Part shown: one piece after another, positions 1,465-16,441 of the stretch | Layout of the letters: each line of letters begins with the position of its first letter | Position numbering within the stretch: the first letter of the stretch is position 1 | DNA from: Candidatus Doudnabacteria bacterium | GTDB taxonomy: Bacteria > Patescibacteriota > Doudnabacteria > UBA920 | Direction: 5' to 3' | DNA: 44,668 bases | Assembly (NCBI GenBank): GCA_023245995.1 | Contig: JAHFJH010000007.1 | Coordinates: 1-44,668 of the forward strand | Notes under the pieces: generated by a model | Database searches by the model: none | Told to the model about the DNA's origin: nothing | Seen by the model: the letters and a program-made list of their open reading frames with translations, nothing else | Program-made: the position numbers and the translations under genes

Positions 1465-4400
1465 GTGTGCATTATGTTTTCTTTACATTCTACAAACAAA
1501 AGATTTAATTTAATTCTTGGCTGTGTTTTGATATTTGCTGCCGTTCTGGTTTTTTTGTCATTTCAGCAGCACAACGCTTTGGCTATTACATGCACGGGTC
1601 AAGCTCAGTGTAGTGTGGACGGAACAGGACACGGTACATGCAGTAATGCACCCGATGTATCTATATCTTGTGGCACAGGTCAACATGAGTATTGTGCTAA
1701 TTCAGATTTGCCATGTGGCGATACTTATTGTTTTGGCACTGTCCAAGCTTGTGCCAATAGTTTTTACGTTTGTGACACCAACGGTGCTTGCGTAATAGGG
1801 AGTAAGGGTATTCATCCACACTATGAAGCTGACCCAACATGTAACAACCAGTGTCCGACGCCTACACCAACACCTTCGCCCATACCTCTCTCCTGTACTC
1901 TTTCTGGTGGAAATATATTAATTGGTGGGACAGTTACGGCAACTGCGCACGACGGTGCTGGTGCTCCTGGGTATTATTTTACTGCTCCTGGGGCAAGTTT
2001 TGTTGGAGCGACAAATGAGAGTGTGGATTTACAATACGACTCTCCTGGAACGTACAGTGTAGATGTGGCAACAGCGGCAAATCAAGACACAGCTCACTGC
2101 GGCGACGTAACAGTTGCAAACGCTCCTTTGCCTGGGGTTAGTCTTAGTGCTAGCCCTGCTAGTGGCCAGTATCCAACTGCTGTTACTTTAGGTTGGTCCA
2201 CAACCAACTCGCCAGACACTTGTGTTGCAGGCGGGGATTGGTCTGGTGGTAAGTCTGCTAGCGGTGGTAGCGAAGGCGTAGGTAACCCAGCTATTGGTAG
2301 TCACAGTTATACCATTACTTGTTCAAATACAAATGGAGTAGCAAGCGACAGTGTAGGCGTTACCATAGACCCACCAACGCTCTCTTGTTCTCTTTCTAAC
2401 GGAACTATTTCACAAGGTGGAAATGTAGACGCTTCTGCAACTGGTGGAGTTGGCAGTTACACATGGTCTACTCCTGGTGCGACTGTTTCTGGGAGTGGTG
2501 CAAATATTGGACTTCAGTATTTAAATTTTGGTTCGTATAGCGTAGATGTGTCTACATCAAGCAGTGGCCAGTCTGCACACTGTGGTGATGTTACTGTTAA
2601 CCCAAACGGACCTTATGTAAATTTGGGTGCAACGCCAAACCCTGTTAACAGTGGAAATCCAACAACGCTTTCTTGGGATTCTGGGTATGTAACTTCATGC
2701 ACAGCAACTCAAGGTGCAGGATTTTCTACCGGTGGCGCAGTTAGCGGTAGCGACGCCTCAAGCGCTTTAACAAATGCCGAAACTTTTATTGTAACTTGTT
2801 CTGGTCCAAATGGCACGGCGAGCGACAGCGTTACAGTTTATGTGAACAGCCCACCTGGCACTCCGCCTAGCTGTACCAGTAGCGCACCAGAGTCATCAAC
2901 TACTACAGCAATTTCCGGAGTATTCTTTGTGTATGCATATGGCGTTACGAACGCTACATCGGTAACTTTCCCAACATGGGGCGATGTTGGCGGACAGGAC
3001 GATTTGGTTTGGTATGCAGGTACAAATTTGGGTAGTGGCACATGGCGAGCAAGTATCAATTTAGCTAACCATAAGGCAGGCAACCCAGAGTACGGTAATA
3101 TAAACAGTCATATTTACATGAGTAACAGCAGTTTTACTAACACTTGGTGTGGTACTGCTAATTTTACTCGCACCTTTGTAGCGCCGACTCCCACACCTAC
3201 TGTTACTCCAACACCAACACCCGCACCAACTGCGACCCTAACAGCTTCTCCAAGTCCTGTTGAATATGGTTACTCAACTACACTTACTTGGACTTCCCAG
3301 AATACTGTAAGTTGCACCGAAGCATTTGGTGCAGGTTTTGCTACAGGTGGAGCGACTAGCGGTGCAGATGCGTCTACTGCCCTAACCGGCTTGTCTACCT
3401 TCCGTATGAATTGTCTTGGACTAGATGGTAGCACCGTGACTAAAGAAATTAGCGTGCCGGTAAATATTCCAACTCTCTCTTGTTCTTTTTCTCCTTCAAC
3501 CATACCTCTTGGGCAACCAGTTACAGCAACTGCGTACGACCCAGCTTTCGGCGCGACACTTTTTTGGTCTTACGGGGGTGCTTACAATGTTACGCAGTCT
3601 GGCAACACGTTAACTTTAACCTATGCAGCCCCTGGGACCTATACCGTGTCTGCTACTACTAGCCCACAAGGTTCTGCGAGTTGTAGTGTTACAGTAACAG
3701 CACTTCCTGCACCAACTGTGGCTTTAACTGCATCACCGAACTCTGGAAGTTATCCAACTCCTGTTACTTTGTCTTGGGTAACAGGCAATAGTCCTTCTAG
3801 CTGTTTTGCTTCTAGCTCACACAACGATTGGACAGGCAGTAAAAGTATTTCAGGTGGTTCGGAAAACATTGGTAGTCCAACTGCCGCTACTCATACTTAC
3901 ACCATAGTTTGTTCTAACGCGAATGGTGTCGCTTCTGACTCACAGACTGTAGTTATAAGTAGCATTGCTCTTCCACCAGCAGTTTCTCTTTCTGCAAGTC
4001 AGTCCTCTGGTTTGTATCCGACAAACATAACTTTGACTTGGACACCTTCGAATAGTCCAGATTCCTGTACCGCAACAAGCTCCACAGGTGACTGGGTTGG
4101 TAGTAAACTTGCAACCAACAGTCCGCACAGTGAAAGTTTGGTTCCGCTAGTAGGTGTGCATACATATACTATTACTTGTCCAAAATCTGGTTTTACTACT
4201 GCAACGGCAACAACTACTGTAACCATAACTTCCTTGCCACCTACTGTGAGTTTGACTTATGCGAGTAACCCAGTTGCATATAATACTCCAGCACAGTTGT
4301 TCTGGACATCTAACTACACAACCAGCTGTACAGCAACACAGGGCGCGGGTTTTAATACAGCAAATGCTGTTTCTGGTACAGATTTTTCTAGCAACTTAAC

Positions 4401-8488: not shown

Positions 8489-9991
8489 ATGGAAAACGCA
8501 GAGTACAAACCAGTTATAGGGTTAGAAGTTCACATTCAACTTAAGACGAAGTCGAAGATGTTTGGTATGGCTCCAAACAAGCTAGACATGACCGAGCCCA
8601 ATGTGAATATAGACGAGGTAGTTACGGCACAGCCCGGAAGTTTACCTGTGGCCAACAAGGAGGCAATACGCCTTGCGGCTAAAATGGGTTTGGCTCTAAA
8701 CTGCACAATAGACGAGTGGAGTAAGTTTGACCGCAAACACTATTTTTACCCAGACCTTCCGAAGGGGTATCAGATTTCTCAGTTGGACCAACCAATTGCT
8801 AAAGAAGGCTGGCTGGAAATTACTAAGTCGGATGGTGCAGTCAAAAAGATTGCCATACAGAGGGCGCATCTTGAGGAGGATGCGGGGAAGAATATACATC
8901 CAGATGGTTTGCCTTACTCGCTTGTTGACTACAACCGTGCTGGCACGCCACTTTTGGAAATTGTTACTCACCCTTGCATAGAAAGCGCAGAAGAAGCACG
9001 TAAGTACTTAGAAGAACTTCAGCGGATTGCCCGCTATGTAGGCGCGAGTGATGCAGATATGGAAAAGGGGAGCATGCGTTGTGAACCTTCAATATCTGTT
9101 AGGTTGCCTGGAGAAGTTGGTTTGCCTCCATATAAGTGTGAAGTAAAGAACATAAACTCTTTTAAGTTTGTGGAACAGGCCATAAAGTACGAAATTGAAC
9201 GACAAACCGAAATGCGGAAAGAAGGCCTTGTCCCCAAGCAGGTGACCATGGGCTGGAACGAGAAGCTAAACCAAACAGTAGAGCAGAGAAGCAAAGAAGA
9301 GGCGAACGATTACCGTTATTTGCCCGAGCCAGACTTACCTCCACTACAGTTTACGTCGGAGTATATAGAGGAGCTTCGGGGAGAACTTCCAGAACTGCCA
9401 GCGGCAAAACGGAAACGGTTTAGGGAGGAGTACGGTTTGCCAGACGCGGATATAGAAAATTTAATCAATTGGAAAGAACTTACATATTATTTTGAGAATG
9501 TAGTAAGTGAGTTAGACGCGTGGATTCTTTCCGCCCCAGCAGAGTTGAGTGGAAAAACAGATAAACGCGGTAAGCTTATTAAGTCTGTTGCTAATTGGTG
9601 TCTGCAAGATTTTTCTGCCATGCTGAATGTAGAACATAAAAATCCGGACGAGTCTTTAGTTACTCCAGAGAACTTAGCTGAACTTGTAAAACTTATTGAT
9701 GACGGTAAAATTTCTAGCTCCGCGGCTAAACAGGTCTTCAGGGCCATGTACGAACGCGGTGGTGACCCAAGTGAAATAGTTGGCGATTTAGGGCTTGAGC
9801 AGGTGAGTGACGAGGGTGCTATAGCTTCTGTTATAGACGTAGTCATAGCAAACAACGAAAAAGCGGTAACAGATTATAAAGCAGGGCTTGAGAAGAGTTT
9901 TGGCTTTCTGGTTGGACAGGCTATGAAAGAACTTAAAGGCAAGGGGAACCCCAACTTAGTTAACGAGCTACTTCGAAATAAATTAAAATAA
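8489..9991 (+). CDS. gatB: Asp-tRNA(Asn)/Glu-tRNA(Gln) amidotransferase subunit B
   Basis: YKPVIGLEVHIQLKTKSKMF...DYNRAGTPLLEIVTHP, C-terminal GatB/Yqey domain. Confidence 0.97.
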   Translation: MENAEYKPVIGLEVHIQLKTKSKMFGMAPNKLDMTEPNVNIDEVVTAQPGSLPVANKEAIRLAAKMGLALNCTIDEWSKFDRKHYFYPDLPKGYQISQLDQPIAKEGWLEITKSDGAVKKIAIQRAHLEEDAGKNIHPDGLPYSLVDYNRAGTPLLEIVTHPCIESAEEARKYLEELQRIARYVGASDADMEKGSMRCEPSISVRLPGEVGLPPYKCEVKNINSFKFVEQAIKYEIERQTEMRKEGLVPKQVTMGWNEKLNQTVEQRSKEEANDYRYLPEPDLPPLQFTSEYIEELRGELPELPAAKRKRFREEYGLPDADIENLINWKELTYYFENVVSELDAWILSAPAELSGKTDKRGKLIKSVANWCLQDFSAMLNVEHKNPDESLVTPENLAELVKLIDDGKISSSAAKQVFRAMYERGGDPSEIVGDLGLEQVSDEGAIASVIDVVIANNEKAVTDYKAGLEKSFGFLVGQAMKELKGKGNPNLVNELLRNKLK

Positions 9992-9996
9992 AATTT

Positions 9997-10335
9997 ATGG
10001 TAAGAAGATTGCGTTTGGCCGAAGAGCCTAAGGCCCAAAATTACAGAGACGTAACCACTAAGCATGGAGTAGATTTGTCTAAACTCCAAGATTTAAGATC
10101 TGAGTTGGACGATTTTTTCAGCACAGATGCAGAGCGTAAAGTCGCCCGTTTGGACACTCGGTACAGAGAAGCTAAGGACAAGTTTATGGCTTTAGGGAGA
10201 CCAAGAGACACAGAGCCAAAAGAAACATTGGTAAGCACGCTTAACGCTTTTAGCTTGCCTAAATTTATGAAAAATCCGCACGCCTATTTAGCACTTTTGG
10301 ATTACTTAAGCGAGCACACTCTAATACCAGAGTAA
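9997..10335 (+). CDS. hypothetical protein, probable paralogue of the next ORF
   Basis: 112-aa ORF 5 nt after gatB; helical, charged. Confidence 0.75.
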   Translation: MVRRLRLAEEPKAQNYRDVTTKHGVDLSKLQDLRSELDDFFSTDAERKVARLDTRYREAKDKFMALGRPRDTEPKETLVSTLNAFSLPKFMKNPHAYLALLDYLSEHTLIPE

Positions 10336-10338
10336 TAT

Positions 10339-10668
10339 ATGCAAAGGTTTGGTTTAATTAGAGGCAGTAAACAAGAGCCAAAAGGGGAGAGTGCTGGCGC
10401 CGATTATAAAATAGGTTATGGACTTAATTGGCAAAAGTTACGTGAGTGTGAGGCTAGAATGAAGCAATTTTTAGGTGATAGATTGGAGATTCCAAAGCAT
10501 CGTGAGCAATTATATAAAGAGCAATTAGTAGCTTTTCGGGCAATGCCCGTAGAAAAGTTAGTGGAGCTTTTAAATAACTCCAGAGAAGTGAACTGGGATG
10601 CTAAGTTGTATGTCTTCTTAGCGCTTACACAAGCTCTCCGCGAAAAAGACAAAACTACCGAGTTGTAA
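10339..10668 (+). CDS. hypothetical protein, probable paralogue of the preceding ORF
   Basis: 109-aa ORF directly after the preceding gene; similar length and layout. Confidence 0.75.
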   Translation: MQRFGLIRGSKQEPKGESAGADYKIGYGLNWQKLRECEARMKQFLGDRLEIPKHREQLYKEQLVAFRAMPVEKLVELLNNSREVNWDAKLYVFLALTQALREKDKTTEL

Positions 10669-10683
10669 ATTGAAATAAAAAAT

Positions 10684-10730
10684 AGGCTAGGTAATGTGTC
10701 GTCTGTGGGTTGACACGCTACCTAGCCCAT
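10684..10730 (+). terminator. long hairpin, probable terminator
   Basis: GGCTAGGTAaTGTGTC...GACACgcTACCTAGCC inverted repeat. Confidence 0.6.
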
Positions 10731-10778
10731 TTGAGTTTCCCTCGAAAATTTCCTCCTTTCTTGGGGGTGTTTTTTGTT

Positions 10779-11843
10779 TTAGGTTCCTGCGATTAGGTCG
10801 TCTTCGAATTCCTCGTCCATAAAAGCGGCGAGGTTCTCGATGGCGACCTGTTCGTTGTGTGCGAAATTGAGACTTTCGATGTCTCCAGTTTGAAGGTTTT
10901 TCGCCATCACTTCAAAACCTGATTTAGTTTGCCGTGAGTCTTCTGTGGCCTTTAGGCGATCATTTTCTACGATCAACACCATACCAGCCGCAATTACACT
11001 GGCGCTAATCATGTTATCGCCTTCCGCCGCGGGTGTGGCGTTGTGGTCGGGTTCGTGTTTAGCCTCTGGCCTATGGTCCTCTTCTCTTTCACCTTCGCTA
11101 AGAAGCTCACCGAGACCAAGGTCCTCGGCAAAAATCAGAGCGAAACTCACGCCGATTTGAACGAAGATAGCTAGGATCGCTTTCTTCAAGAAGAAGAATC
11201 CTGGGTCAACGCTCAGATTTGGCTTGGCCCACCAGACGAGGCCTCCGAGACCTGCGAGGAGTAGGCATTCAATTCCAACTACCACCGAGTCACTTTCTTC
11301 GTAGAGGAAGACAGCCGCGAGGATGACGGTGATCAGGATGGCGACGGCGACTCCGAGCAGCGCCTTCCAACTGTGCTCGTACCAGTGGAAGGTGAAGTAG
11401 AGGGTGAAGCCCATCACCAAAATGCTCGTGACGGCCTGTATTCCTTTCAGGATCATCCGTTCATTTTTGTCGAGCCTCTCGTCTGGCACTAGCCTTGTGC
11501 CGAAGGTTAGACACACGCCGTAAAGCGTGGCCATTATTAGCATCTTCACCCAGACTGGGATGCTGGGGAAAGCTGGTGTAGGGTCCACCAGCCCGAGTAT
11601 GCACATGGCAAGCAAGAAGCAGGCAACGTGCATAAACTCTTGAAAGCGACCCGACCGCTCTTGGTAGAAGCACCAGAGCGACACGGCAATTCCGCCGGAA
11701 AAGGTGATGAGGCCAAGCCCGCCTCCCACCAGTGATTGCCACGTGCCCCACATGTAGAACATGAAGATGAGCACGAGGGAAGCGAGTGCTGTTTCAACGC
11801 CAGTGGAGATCACCAGCGCGTTTTTGAGGTGACTTTCTTTCAC
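10779..11843 (-). CDS. polytopic membrane protein with charged C-terminal tail, unknown function
   Basis: 354 aa, many TM segments; GTG start at 11843 preceded by AGGAGG; GTGA overlap with upstream ORF stop. Confidence 0.85.
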   Translation of the reverse strand: MKESHLKNALVISTGVETALASLVLIFMFYMWGTWQSLVGGGLGLITFSGGIAVSLWCFYQERSGRFQEFMHVACFLLAMCILGLVDPTPAFPSIPVWVKMLIMATLYGVCLTFGTRLVPDERLDKNERMILKGIQAVTSILVMGFTLYFTFHWYEHSWKALLGVAVAILITVILAAVFLYEESDSVVVGIECLLLAGLGGLVWWAKPNLSVDPGFFFLKKAILAIFVQIGVSFALIFAEDLGLGELLSEGEREEDHRPEAKHEPDHNATPAAEGDNMISASVIAAGMVLIVENDRLKATEDSRQTKSGFEVMAKNLQTGDIESLNFAHNEQVAIENLAAFMDEEFEDDLIAGT

Positions 11844-13060
11844 TGTTGCCTCCTGGGTTGTGCGGCCAGTGCGCCGCGGGTTTTAGGTTGCGGATGCTGT
11901 GTCGGTGATGTTGCTTGAAGTTCAGCCACTCCCAATGTCATCGCCTTTGCGACCAACTGGTCTTCTTCGGCTGAGATCTTCCAGTACGTAACTATGACGG
12001 GAAACTCAGCAAATCCGAGTGCCACCGCCAAAGCCAGTAAAGATATGGTCAGCATCCGAAAAAAGTGGGTTATCAACATCAAACCGAGCTGGTCAACGTG
12101 CCTTAGCGCCAGCCCACCGGTGTTTTCGGCGATTACTCGGGCACTGATAGTGCCTTGAGCGCTTGCGTTGAGAGTTAGGGCGCGTTTTGTCCACATTTCC
12201 CTGGCACGAGCCATCGCTTCAATGGCGTTCACCAGTGCGTTCGTAACCGCTCGCATTTGGCTTTCGGCCAGGTTTGGGTCTGGCCTAGCTTTGTTAGCCG
12301 AAGCACCGAGTTGTGCTCGGAGCTGCGATTGTTGTGCAGTTAGCACCGGAATCGCGTCGGCATTTCTTGCAACCTCGTTGGCATAGCTTGGAAGCAGATC
12401 GTCGGCGAACGCAGTATTGAAGTCAGCCTGAATTTTGCCAGCGCGTTCGTGCTGATCCAGCGCCAGCTTGCGAATGCGGCCAGAGCTTTTAGCGGTGTTA
12501 AGGCATGCCAACCGAAAATTATCTGGCAGCACTGCCGAGAATTTGGTAATGGAGGCAGCGTTTTTTGCTGCCGCTTTCCCTTCAACGACTTTGTGGAAGC
12601 CGTCTTTCTCGGTTTTGCTACTTGCCAGGCCGTAACTTAATTGCCGAACAAACTTGGGCAGGCGACCGCCGATCAGCTTGAGGATTTTCTCAATCAGTTC
12701 GGATGCCACGAATCTGTCCAGTTTCGGATCGGCTAGTTTATTGAGTTCGGCAGTGATCTCCTCGATTACTTTGATCGAATCACTGCCGAGTTCGGCTAGC
12801 TGGATGAACAGCCCTGTCATGCCGGCCATAGCTATCAGCGGCTTCGTGCTGGGCATGGTGAGTTGGTTTTCTCCGTAGATATTTTTCAGGGCGCGAACGT
12901 TTTCGCCGATGAGTTGTGCGGCTCCTGCCGCCATGTGACTCATCGCAAGTTGTACTTGCTTCACGACCTGATCGTCTTTCTCGTACTTCTCTGGTTGCAG
13001 CGAGCGGACTTTTAGGGCCGGCTGCCTGCGCAGTTTCAGTTTCAGACCTTGTCCTTTCAT
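11840..13060 (-). CDS. unknown helical protein with one C-terminal TM segment; two-gene operon with 10779..11843
   Basis: likely start ATG at 13060 (MKGQGLKLKLRR) preceded by GGGAG; ORF track start 13132 probably too early. Confidence 0.8.
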   Translation of the reverse strand: MKGQGLKLKLRRQPALKVRSLQPEKYEKDDQVVKQVQLAMSHMAAGAAQLIGENVRALKNIYGENQLTMPSTKPLIAMAGMTGLFIQLAELGSDSIKVIEEITAELNKLADPKLDRFVASELIEKILKLIGGRLPKFVRQLSYGLASSKTEKDGFHKVVEGKAAAKNAASITKFSAVLPDNFRLACLNTAKSSGRIRKLALDQHERAGKIQADFNTAFADDLLPSYANEVARNADAIPVLTAQQSQLRAQLGASANKARPDPNLAESQMRAVTNALVNAIEAMARAREMWTKRALTLNASAQGTISARVIAENTGGLALRHVDQLGLMLITHFFRMLTISLLALAVALGFAEFPVIVTYWKISAEEDQLVAKAMTLGVAELQATSPTQHPQPKTRGALAAQPRRQQ

Positions 13061-13122
13061 AGTTTTTCTCCCGGAAATATGCGATTGTGGGATTGAGACA
13101 AGCGCACGCTTGCCAGTGATTT

Positions 13123-13245
13123 GGTAAAGCAAAAAAAGTTATCAAAGAACTAAATGAATTGAAAAATAAAAAAGCCTTTGCTTTACCGCATAAGGCTTTT
13201 AAAAAACAGCCTTATGCGCTAGAGCAAAATGAAACTTCTTCATTT
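13123..13245 (-). promoter_or_regulatory. candidate attenuator leader: competing hairpins in the 5' UTR of the 13060-10779 operon
   Basis: stem 1 13187-13197/13208-13218; terminator stem 13170-13176/13194-13200 followed by U-run on the minus strand; stem 3 13123-13133/13177-13187. Confidence 0.6.
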
Positions 13246-13277
13246 TTGGGCAGTTTGTCTGTTTTTTGTTCAATGCT

Positions 13278-13306
13278 ATTCTAGCACTTTTTCGCCTAAT
13301 TGTCAA
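13278..13306 (-). promoter_or_regulatory. sigma70-type promoter for the minus-strand operon
   Basis: minus strand TTGACA (13306-13301), 17 nt, TAGAAT (13283-13278). Confidence 0.75.
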
Positions 13307-13332
13307 TAAATCGCTTAATTTAGATGTATTTA

Positions 13333-13361
13333 TTGACTATTACGCATATATATGCCATGAT
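13333..13361 (+). promoter_or_regulatory. sigma70-type promoter for the 13436 lipoprotein gene
   Basis: TTGACT, 17 nt, CATGAT; resembles the promoter at 12-40. Confidence 0.6.
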
Positions 13362-13435
13362 TTTGCATGGGCAAGCGCCCGTTTTGATGGAATGAAAGTA
13401 TTATAGGTCTGAAAAGAGAAATAGGAGGACTTGAG

Positions 13436-13894
13436 ATGTACACGAACCGGATAACTCTTTTTTTTGTATTGTTGCTTGGTTCAGGTTGTGGTGTGAGTGG
13501 CGTACCTAACCTTGGAGGTGCGCCTGAGCAAACATCTGCTCCGGCTACAGCGACTGTTGAGGCGTCTCCGACAGCTACTTTGCGGGAAGTGGCACCCGAG
13601 AAGTCAACTAAAGGCAAGGACTGCGGTGGTGGTTACTGGGTTTCCGCCGGACTCTCGCGGAGCGGTGAGCTTGTTGTTTACGACACAAGCGACGGTCGCA
13701 TTCCGCAGAAGGTCTCGGCTGGAGGCGTTTCCAGAACCATGCAACAGTGTGGCGTCGGCGAAGGCTCTACATGCCGTAAAGCAGAACAGGCCGGCATAGG
13801 GCTAGGCGAGCCCTTTAGGCTGTTCATTAACGATGAATGGAAGAATTTCGAAGGCTTCCGAAGCCACGTAAGGCAACAATTATGCGGCAAGTAA
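13436..13894 (+). CDS. small lipoprotein, unknown function
   Basis: AGGAGG before ATG; MYTNRITLFFVLLLGSGC lipobox; Ala/Thr/Pro-rich linker. Confidence 0.8.
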   Translation: MYTNRITLFFVLLLGSGCGVSGVPNLGGAPEQTSAPATATVEASPTATLREVAPEKSTKGKDCGGGYWVSAGLSRSGELVVYDTSDGRIPQKVSAGGVSRTMQQCGVGEGSTCRKAEQAGIGLGEPFRLFINDEWKNFEGFRSHVRQQLCGK

Positions 13895-13896
13895 CG

Positions 13897-13968
13897 ACGC
13901 CCGACTAGCGCGGCCTAGATTTACTTTTAGTACAATCTAGGTTCTCGTCTAGTCGGGTGTTTTATTTT
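13897..13968 (+). terminator. intrinsic terminator
   Basis: CCCGACTAG...CCTAGATT...AATCTAGG...CTAGTCGGG then TGTTTTATTTTTC. Confidence 0.8.
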
Positions 13969-14969
13969 TCATATTTTCTAAACCATGTTTTTTGTCTTTT
14001 TGAATACTTTTTTATTTCGGAAAATAATTGTGTGTAGTAGGGAGAAGACAAGAAATTTCTAATTTCTAATTTCCAATTTTTAATCTTAAGTCCCGAAGGC
14101 AAGCTTTTTATATACCGAGAAACATAACGATACTCGAGACCAAAGTCGTCTAGACGTTTCCAAGAGATGCCTTGCTTGCGTAGCTCAGTTACTTCTTTTA
14201 GCATTCCAGAATAAATTCGCTCTTGTAGGCGTTTTTCTATTCTCTTGTAAAGTTGCTCACGGGGCGGGTTTAAGTAGTGAATTTTGTTGTAGATTGGTTG
14301 GCTGTTAAATTGTTTAATCGCTAAATCGTTTTGTTGAGTCACTGGTATTGGCTTGCCTGTGGCATGAATAATTTCTAGGGCGCGAATGAGCCGGCGAGGG
14401 TTGTAAGGGTCTATTGTGCTTGCACGGGCAGGATCTTTTTTTTGGAGTAGCGCAAATAATTGTTTGGTAGATTTCTTTTCCATTAACTTTCGAAACTTTT
14501 TGTTTGGCGGGACTTCAGGAATGCTGTTATTCAGTATTAATGCATCTACATACTGTCCGGTGCCACCACAAATAATTGGCGTTTTGCCACGCGACAAAAT
14601 ATCGTTTATAGTTTTTTCGCCATCACGCTTAAAATCACTTACCGAGTATTGCTTTTTTGGGTTTACAAAATCTATGCAGTGATGGGGGATGCCCTTGTAT
14701 AGGAACACAAGGGAATTTTGAATTTTTAATTTTCCAATTTTTAAATTATGAGTTGAAGTTTTAAGTTTTGTCCATTTTCCTTCCACTTTACCAGTACCAA
14801 TATCTAGTCCTCTGTAGACTTGGCGTGAGTCTGCAGAAATTATTTCGCCGTTATATTTTTTTGCTAAGCGTATGGCATACTCGCTCTTACCACTGGCAGT
14901 AGGACCAATTACGATGTGAATATGTTTACTAGGTGTATTTGTTGTATTGGGTATACTTTTTTTGCGCAT
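13962..14969 (-). CDS. miaA: tRNA dimethylallyltransferase
   Basis: IVIGPTASGKSEYAIRLAKKYNGEIISADSRQVYRGLDIGTGK; PRRLIRALEI. Confidence 0.95.
   Translation of the reverse strand: MRKKSIPNTTNTPSKHIHIVIGPTASGKSEYAIRLAKKYNGEIISADSRQVYRGLDIGTGKVEGKWTKLKTSTHNLKIGKLKIQNSLVFLYKGIPHHCIDFVNPKKQYSVSDFKRDGEKTINDILSRGKTPIICGGTGQYVDALILNNSIPEVPPNKKFRKLMEKKSTKQLFALLQKKDPARASTIDPYNPRRLIRALEIIHATGKPIPVTQQNDLAIKQFNSQPIYNKIHYLNPPREQLYKRIEKRLQERIYSGMLKEVTELRKQGISWKRLDDFGLEYRYVSRYIKSLPSGLKIKNWKLEIRNFLSSPYYTQLFSEIKKYSKRQKTWFRKYEK
14051..14090. repeat. 7-nt-period repeat inside the miaA 3' region
   Basis: agaaatttctaatttctaatttccaatttttaatc; encodes LKIKNWKLEIRNF on minus strand. Confidence 0.75.
14711..14768. 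repeat. 7-nt-period repeat inside miaA (second site)
   Basis: gggaattttgaatttttaattttccaatttttaaattatgagttgaag; encodes NLKIGKLKIQNSL on minus strand. Confidence 0.65.
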
Positions 14970-15036
14970 AAAGACGGGAGGATTTACATGCTCATTTTCA
15001 CTATATTAGCGTATGCTACAATTAGTATACAGATAA

Positions 15037-15603
15037 ATGAAAGGGAAAAACACTATGAACAAAAAGTTTTTTATACCTGCAATTATAGTAGTTATTTTGG
15101 TAGTGGCAGGAGGCTTTTTAGCAGCTCGTAACAGTGCTAAGCAAGAAAGCGAAAATGCCAGCAAGACAGAACGTGAAGTAACTTTAAATGAGCAGTTGGC
15201 AGGTCAAAATGCAACTTCTGGCACAGCAACACCAAGCGCAACTCCGGTAGCCTCTCCGACTCCAACACCGACTCCACCACCGGATAGTCATTTTAGTGGC
15301 CCTGGGGACTCTGGTGAAGGAGTGGATACTCAAGTTTTTGAGGTAGATTACAATGGCACAAATTTTTCTCCGGCAAGTCTTTCTGTGCGCGTTGGAGATG
15401 TAGTAATATTTAAAAACTCTTCTTCCAGTGCTTTTTGGCCAGCCTCAAATCCGCATCCACAACATACTGACTACCCAGAATTTGATGCAAAAAAACCTAT
15501 TGCTGCAGGACAGAGTTTCCAGTTTAAGTTTACCAAGGCTGGTACATGGGGCTTCCACAACCACTTAAACGCCGGTGCCAAAGGAACTATAATTGTAAAA
15601 TAA
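15037..15603 (+). CDS. membrane-anchored cupredoxin-like protein
   Basis: N-terminal TM, TPTPTPPP linker, cupredoxin-like VEVDYNGTNFSPASLSVRVGDVVIFKN...AGTWGFHNHLNAGAKGTIIVK; start may be ATG 15055. Confidence 0.85.
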   Translation: MKGKNTMNKKFFIPAIIVVILVVAGGFLAARNSAKQESENASKTEREVTLNEQLAGQNATSGTATPSATPVASPTPTPTPPPDSHFSGPGDSGEGVDTQVFEVDYNGTNFSPASLSVRVGDVVIFKNSSSSAFWPASNPHPQHTDYPEFDAKKPIAAGQSFQFKFTKAGTWGFHNHLNAGAKGTIIVK

Positions 15604-15610
15604 TTTTAGT

Positions 15611-16441
15611 ATGCAAAATAAGCCACATACTTGGCAAACAGTAGGTCATTTAGTTCCCAAGAAGTTACTTGAACGGCAGTTATGGAACAAGACAGTTGCG
15701 CAGAGTTATATATTTTTAGGACCAGAGGGTGTGGGGAAACGAACGCTTGCAGAAGAATTTGCTGAAAGTATTGCTTTGAATGCAACAGAAGTAGTGCGTT
15801 TTAACTGCGAAGGGGTAGGCATGGAAGAGCTAAGGACGCTTTTAGCACAAGTTGCTTTAAAACCTGCCTCTGGAGGAAAACAAGTTTTCATTTTAGATAA
15901 GGCCGACACTTTAAACCAGTCATGTAGCAATGCACTTCTAAAGACACTGGAGGAGCCGAATAAATCTGCGGTTTTTATTTTAGTTGCTGGAAGTTATAGC
16001 TTGCCTTCTACAATAGTTTCGCGTTGCCAAATAGTTCATTTTGGAAAATTGAGCAGAGAAGAGTTGGAAAGTTTGGTCAAGCGGTATAGTTTAGAGCTTT
16101 CAAGCGACATGCTGGCCACAGCGCAGGGTTCTGCTGGGTTACTAATGCGTTTTGCGCGCGAACCGGATTTTTGGGGACAACAATTAGTGTGGCGACGGGA
16201 ACTTCACGAACTGCTAAGTGCAAGTGTCGCGGTGCGGGTTGTGCGCAGTCAGCAGTTTGCTTCTGAGGAAGTCGAACAGTTAAACGCAAGGCTTACAAAT
16301 TGGCTTTCAGTGCTTGTACAAGAATTGTCAACTTTCGGTGCTAATGCAAGGCAACTTTCTGTTATTTTAGAAGCATGGCAACGCATGAGAAAAAATGCTA
16401 ATAGAAAATTGGTTATGGAATATGTGTGTCTGAATATCTAA
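15611..16441 (+). CDS. holB: DNA polymerase III delta' subunit-like clamp loader ATPase
   Basis: GPEGVGKRTLAEEF; LDKADTLNQSCSNALLKTLEEP. Confidence 0.8.
   Translation: MQNKPHTWQTVGHLVPKKLLERQLWNKTVAQSYIFLGPEGVGKRTLAEEFAESIALNATEVVRFNCEGVGMEELRTLLAQVALKPASGGKQVFILDKADTLNQSCSNALLKTLEEPNKSAVFILVAGSYSLPSTIVSRCQIVHFGKLSREELESLVKRYSLELSSDMLATAQGSAGLLMRFAREPDFWGQQLVWRRELHELLSASVAVRVVRSQQFASEEVEQLNARLTNWLSVLVQELSTFGANARQLSVILEAWQRMRKNANRKLVMEYVCLNI

Follow-up and report, generated by a model that had tools for sequence, protein, structure and literature searches.

The attenuators of the trp, his and pheA operons of enterobacteria belong to the leader-peptide class, and in those of the classical trp type an anti-antiterminator causes ribosome-free RNA to terminate. 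A leader-peptide attenuator with an anti-antiterminator has also been described for ilvBNC of Corynebacterium (PMC11857589). The vmlR gene of B. subtilis, an example of attenuation that responds to antibiotic or translation stress, is preceded by a 219-nt leader that has an anti-antiterminator and a three-codon ORF led by a Shine-Dalgarno sequence (PMC9226507).

Here, we analyze the leader of a two-gene membrane-protein operon from a Candidatus Doudnabacteria bacterium whose 949-kb genome is assembled in 54 contigs; among relatives sampled from its phylum, genome sizes range from 0.5 to 1.5 Mb. The operon lies in a stretch of 44,668 nucleotides, hereafter “the window.” Its leader has the generic layout of an attenuator, all on one strand: a promoter, mutually exclusive antiterminator and terminator hairpins, and a U-tract before the first gene. 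The most likely reading of this arrangement is an attenuator-type switch of some kind. More specifically, we propose, with a probability of roughly 40%, that transcription through the leader is attenuated according to the passage of ribosomes along a leader ORF of 14 codons. The control logic is a known one, and the leader is a single instance of it, without comparative support.

Promoter, leader and alternative hairpins

The features of the locus are collected in Table 1. A check in minus-strand coordinates found every arm named in a first-pass annotation of the window in its place. That annotation had also proposed the promoter and a leader of ~210 nt, and both hold up. The promoter is the top-scoring site within 9900-15700. 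Transcription is expected, by deduction from the promoter, to start at ~13271, which leaves a leader of ~211 nt before gene 1, whose start is at 13060 and not 13061. The RNA between the expected start and the antiterminator, ~53 nt, is A-rich and only weakly structured. The small upstream hairpin that had been annotated is likewise present.

Table 1. Features of the leader and operon (window coordinates)
Feature	Position	Strand	Sequence	Properties
Promoter	13278..13306	-	TTGACA-17-TAGAAT	TTGACA at 13306-13301, 17-nt spacer, TAGAAT at 13283-13278; TG ahead of -10 (extended -10); 11/12 matches
Short ORF	13199..13243	-	MKKFHFALAHKAVF* (DNA ATGAAGAAGTTTCATTTTGCTCTAGCGCATAAGGCTGTTTTTTAA)	14 codons; ATG at 13243, TAA at 13201-13199
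Small A/U hairpin	13246-13239 / 13233-13226	-	AAAATGAA/TTCATTTT	8 bp; -4.6 kcal/mol; encloses the short-ORF start
Antiterminator core	13218-13208 / 13197-13187	-	CGCATAAGGCT/AGCCTTATGCG	11 perfect bp; -17.1 kcal/mol
Extended antiterminator	13228-13208 / 13197-13177	-		19/21 pairs; ~-26 kcal/mol
Predicted intrinsic terminator	13200-13192 / 13178-13170	-	AAAAGCCTT/AAGGCTTTT	9 bp; -13.5 kcal/mol
Terminator element with U-tract	13162..13200	-	TTTTTTATTTTT (U-tract)	U-tract runs to 13162
Third pairing	13187-13177 / 13133-13123	-	GGTAAAGCAAA/TTTGCTTTACC	11 bp; readthrough RNA only
Gene 1	11840..13060	-		406 aa; largely helical; one predicted membrane helix (339-357); Shine-Dalgarno GGGAG
Gene 2	10779..11843	-		354 aa; ~8 predicted membrane helices; GTG start; Shine-Dalgarno AGGAGG; overlaps gene 1 by 4 nt

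The 11-bp hairpin of the first-pass annotation was correctly located and paired, but it is merely the core of a longer, imperfect hairpin, in which the stem continues past two mismatches to 13228/13177. This extension, which was absent from the annotation (as was the short ORF), sequesters the 5′ arm of the terminator and also the part of the 3′ arm nearest the loop. The terminator has the position and the U-tract ascribed to it, and its stem of 9 bp is slightly longer than the 7 bp claimed. From this predicted terminator, a short RNA of ~105 nt would be expected.

The leader as a whole folds at -56.2 kcal/mol, surpassing all 200 shuffles (-39.7 ± 3.8 kcal/mol; z = -4.3). In equilibrium predictions, from which all fold probabilities given here are taken, unmasked RNA adopts the antiterminator with P ≥ 0.99 at every 3′ end from 13185 on, while the terminator stays at or below 0.001. 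The RNA alone is predicted to fold in this way because the extended hairpin is so much more stable than the terminator (-26 vs. -13.5 kcal/mol). We found no protector (anti-antiterminator) stem of the trp or vmlR type in the leader, and the ribosome-free RNA is predicted to be antiterminated with P = 0.997; because there is no such stem, the ribosome-free default would be readthrough. Since the antiterminator forms first and is the stronger of the two, the terminator can matter only if the antiterminator 5′ arm is held open.

The first-pass annotation had a third pairing compete for the terminator loop. Its arms are present, and the pairing excludes both the terminator and the lower stem of the antiterminator; it is compatible with the 11-bp core, as just one base is common to both. 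It cannot decide termination, however: by the time its 3′ arm is transcribed, the polymerase has already left the U-tract behind. Its effect is thus confined to readthrough RNA.

Rarity of the arrangement

Terminators were surveyed with a strict rule in 828,507 bases, or 87% of the genome. The rule returned 173 hits, compared with a mean of 16 in order-2 Markov genomes, and therefore picks mostly real terminators. Only this leader, among ~172 genome terminators, has an antiterminator of at least 8 bp that overlaps the terminator 5′ arm. None of 60 order-2 Markov genomes contained an overlapping antiterminator of at least 9 bp, and in an upstream-swap control among 172 terminators, 0.235 overlaps of 9 bp were expected over the entire set, and 0.017 of 11 bp. 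The unusual feature is that one arm has two alternative partners, 100 nt below a promoter. These results support the conclusion that the attenuator logic is unlikely to have arisen by chance.

Could the hairpins nevertheless amount to a plain terminator? In this foremost rival explanation, which we consider unlikely, the transcript would be a stable, structured RNA of ~105 nt or the message for a short peptide, with either hairpin leading to an end at 13162-13168; the operon would depend on readthrough or on a weak promoter of its own. Hairpins that combine a long A-tract, a stem and a U-tract are indeed common terminators here: the genome has ~80 long hairpins with at least 17 of 21 positions paired, many of them terminator-like. 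Moreover, the long hairpin of the leader stops 3 nt short of the U-tract, and one family member has a similar AGCCTTTGC-GTAAA-GCAAAGGCT hairpin. However, a promoter scan of the minus strand, on which the operon is encoded, revealed no promoter-like site in 13165-13061. A second, overlapping 11-bp partner is unnecessary for a simple terminator, and the long hairpin is rich in A/U at its base, where GGC precedes the U-tract, a poor configuration for termination.

Other hairpins were observed in the course of this work. In the window, a long hairpin with 18 of 21 positions paired (10680-10732) lies between two convergent genes (10339-10668 on the plus strand and 10779-11843 on the minus strand) and is presumably a terminator common to both. 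In another genome (G018, locus L004, ~1500-1540), a AGCCTTTGC-TTTAC-GCAAAGGCT hairpin that resembles the leader terminator precedes a sugar-kinase-like gene, and a second similar hairpin follows it directly. Several near-identical palindromes of the type CTAGGTTCTAG.../...CTAGCACCTAG occur in locus L033 (G000:C23) near 3825, 4912, 9729 and 11515, and also in L069 and L070; they are possibly a dispersed repeat family.

A short ORF over the antiterminator arm

Codons 9-12 of the short ORF coincide with the 5′ arm of the antiterminator, and its stop codon sits in the antiterminator loop, where it touches the 5′ arm of the terminator. The codons (KKFHFALAHKAVF) mix K, F, H and A, with no run for one amino acid that would match a pathway of the operon. 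We calculated the consequences of a ribosome on this ORF by masking the RNA (3′ end at 13165) over a stretch that reached 18 nt upstream and 12 nt downstream of the first base in the A-site codon. A ribosome translating the ORF would, in this calculation, sit on the arm whose pairing determines the fold. With the mask at codons 1-4, the antiterminator had a probability of 0.99, and at codon 5 it still prevailed over the terminator (0.83 vs. 0.16). At codons 6-11, the terminator reached P ~0.95; it fell to 0.64 at codon 12, and at codons 14-15 neither structure formed. Three footprint sizes gave the same three zones, with borders that moved by one or two codons. For readthrough RNA (3′ end at 13100; footprint of -18 to +12), a ribosome at codons 4-5 or 13-14 resulted in the third pairing with P = 0.98; with the ribosome at codons 4-5, this pairing coexisted with the antiterminator core. 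Where the third pairing forms, the terminator is excluded.

From the sequences, the exclusivity and rarity of the pairings and their predicted folds, we infer a model that covers termination, translation of the short ORF, the signal and the way in which the operon would respond to it. Transcription would begin near 13271. Once the RNA extends to ~13185, the antiterminator (13228-13177) would form and hide the terminator 5′ arm, and by default the polymerase would continue into the operon. A ribosome close behind the polymerase, on codons 6-11, would keep the antiterminator 5′ arm open; the terminator (13200-13170) could then form, and transcription would end near 13165. Should no ribosome initiate, or should one stall at codons 1-5 (Met-Lys-Lys-Phe-His), the antiterminator would form and the operon would be made. 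Impaired initiation or early elongation would thus raise operon expression. Once readthrough has occurred, the third pairing would stop the terminator from re-forming and may lock the read-through state.

Several observations argue for an attenuator read by ribosomes: the promoter is strong, the 11-bp overlap is unique, and the ORF occupies exactly the arm that needs opening. The first-pass annotation had offered “riboswitch or attenuator.” The attenuator logic is supported by the promoter, the exclusive hairpins, the U-tract, the operon and the swap control, whereas the riboswitch is not supported, as no Rfam family reached its gathering score; because the 14-codon ORF covers the antiterminator 5′ arm, ribosome-mediated attenuation is the better reading.

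Other observations weigh against it. When random upstream sequence was joined to this hairpin, 10% of Markov sequences and 13% of random genome pieces already contained an ATG-initiated ORF running across the arm with its stop inside the hairpin; the ORF is therefore not significant by itself and adds little alone. Both genes of the operon possess a Shine-Dalgarno sequence, but the short ORF has none. Such an absence is normal in this genome, however. Most genes of the window, judged from their upstream regions, also lack the motif, and in the 828 kb sampled it precedes only 8.4% of 442 long ATG ORFs (leftmost ATGs were used), as compared with 6.8% in a control taken within ORFs. This frequency, barely higher than background, suggests that initiation mostly proceeds without such motifs. 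The proposed attenuator would also be without a stem to turn the ribosome-free state off, and a ribosome at the stop codon blocks both folds, as that codon is so near the terminator arm. The long hairpin might weakly terminate by itself. Finally, neither a covariance-model search of 48 further genomes from the order nor a DNA comparison with 60 relatives yielded a homologous leader, and hence neither conservation nor covariation was seen. The fuller version of the model is more doubtful, and we advance it only tentatively: a translation-sensing attenuator without a protector, on by default and switched off by a coupled ribosome on codons 6-11, which controls an imported two-gene operon of ORFan membrane proteins in a bacterium of reduced genome.

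The same switch might instead be opened at its 5′ arm by an RNA-binding protein, a small RNA, or polymerase speed and Nus factors, the ORF being fortuitous. Second among the rivals, this explanation is also unlikely in our judgment. It accommodates the fact that the switch itself is improbable by chance and the ORF is not, and also the want of a Shine-Dalgarno sequence. Yet no known protein-binding leader was matched: the match to a PyrR site scored 18.5 bits, far from the gathering score of 54, and nothing ties the operon to pyrimidines. Furthermore, an ORF placed over the decisive arm requires no additional part.

Operon genes and genomic surroundings

The operon is flanked by gatB and miaA. 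Across the family, the interval between these genes (9992-13961 in the window) is a variable cargo spot of <200 nt to 3.4 kb; the syntenic intervals of family genomes hold different genes and no relative of the operon genes. The GC3 of the operon is 0.57-0.63, compared with ~0.3-0.4 in resident genes. Together, the operon and a divergent lipoprotein gene (13436-13894) occupy 10779-13894 of the window, with GC3 values of 0.51-0.63 and clear Shine-Dalgarno sequences; differing in both respects from most genes around them, they look like imported cargo.

Homologues of gene 1 were not found in 60 relatives, 380 genomes of the phylum, viral contigs, genome contigs, phages or plasmids, nor was there a family or structural match in Pfam, NCBIfam, PHROGs, PADLOC or the PDB. 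Gene 1 did give a 17-bit match in contig C7 of its own genome, but this lay inside an unrelated 487-aa ORF and was dropped as a chance hit. For gene 2, searches of family genomes, genome and viral contigs, plasmids, the PDB and protein families were equally negative. AlphaFold models computed without alignments (pLDDT of 41 and 46) were too poor for use. Regarding the leader, its DNA retrieved nothing from the 60 relatives beyond short terminator-like or A/T-rich pieces, a covariance model run on 49 genomes of the order matched the leader itself alone, and its exact pattern was not found in viral contigs.

These surroundings are what an explanation without any regulatory function would draw upon: an inverted repeat that came with imported foreign DNA would resemble an attenuator by accident. 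The neighboring genes are foreign-looking (GC3 of 0.57-0.63 vs. ~0.35), the spot is variable, and the repeat was not found elsewhere. We nonetheless regard this explanation as quite improbable, given the swap control and the fact that the inverted repeat is not a repeated element within this genome. Also, on the coding strand it is preceded by a near-consensus promoter and followed by the operon, and the U-tract is found on that strand alone.

Least probable is a metabolite-binding riboswitch: the leader shares with riboswitches that have terminator platforms a terminator/antiterminator pair in a 5′ leader, but it has no aptamer-sized domain ahead of the antiterminator, where only the smallest known aptamers would fit into the ~53 nt available, and no Rfam family reached its gathering score, which excludes the known riboswitch families at those thresholds. 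Matches to the leader at low thresholds fell far short of their gathering scores and were judged to be hairpin look-alikes, the best being SpF22_sRNA on the plus strand (29.5 bits vs. a gathering score of 55).

Comparison with known attenuators

If our preferred reading of a ribosome-sensing attenuator is true, ribosome-coupled attenuation serves to control newly acquired genes in a bacterium whose genome is very small, and the coupling between ribosome and polymerase there is tight enough to permit it. A brief literature search for transcription attenuation in Patescibacteria returned no paper.

The leader differs from the attenuators of amino-acid operons in several respects. It has no protector stem, its ORF has no run of codons for a single amino acid, and its stop codon touches the terminator arm; the genes that it precedes encode membrane proteins for which no homologue was found, rather than biosynthetic enzymes. 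In common with those attenuators, it has a short leader ORF and an antiterminator over the terminator 5′ arm, and the position of the ribosome would select between the folds. Unlike the vmlR leader, it has neither an anti-antiterminator nor a Shine-Dalgarno-led ORF, and its downstream genes match no resistance factor in the libraries searched. The two leaders are nonetheless of similar length (219 nt vs. ~211 nt here), and in each, a short ORF accompanies an upstream hairpin and the antiterminator and terminator structures are mutually exclusive; as in vmlR (PMC9226507), impaired translation would raise expression in our model. In its geometry, therefore, the leader appears to work like a leader-peptide attenuator, a resemblance that does not by itself establish membership in the class. 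The control is ordinary in kind and unusual in its setting.
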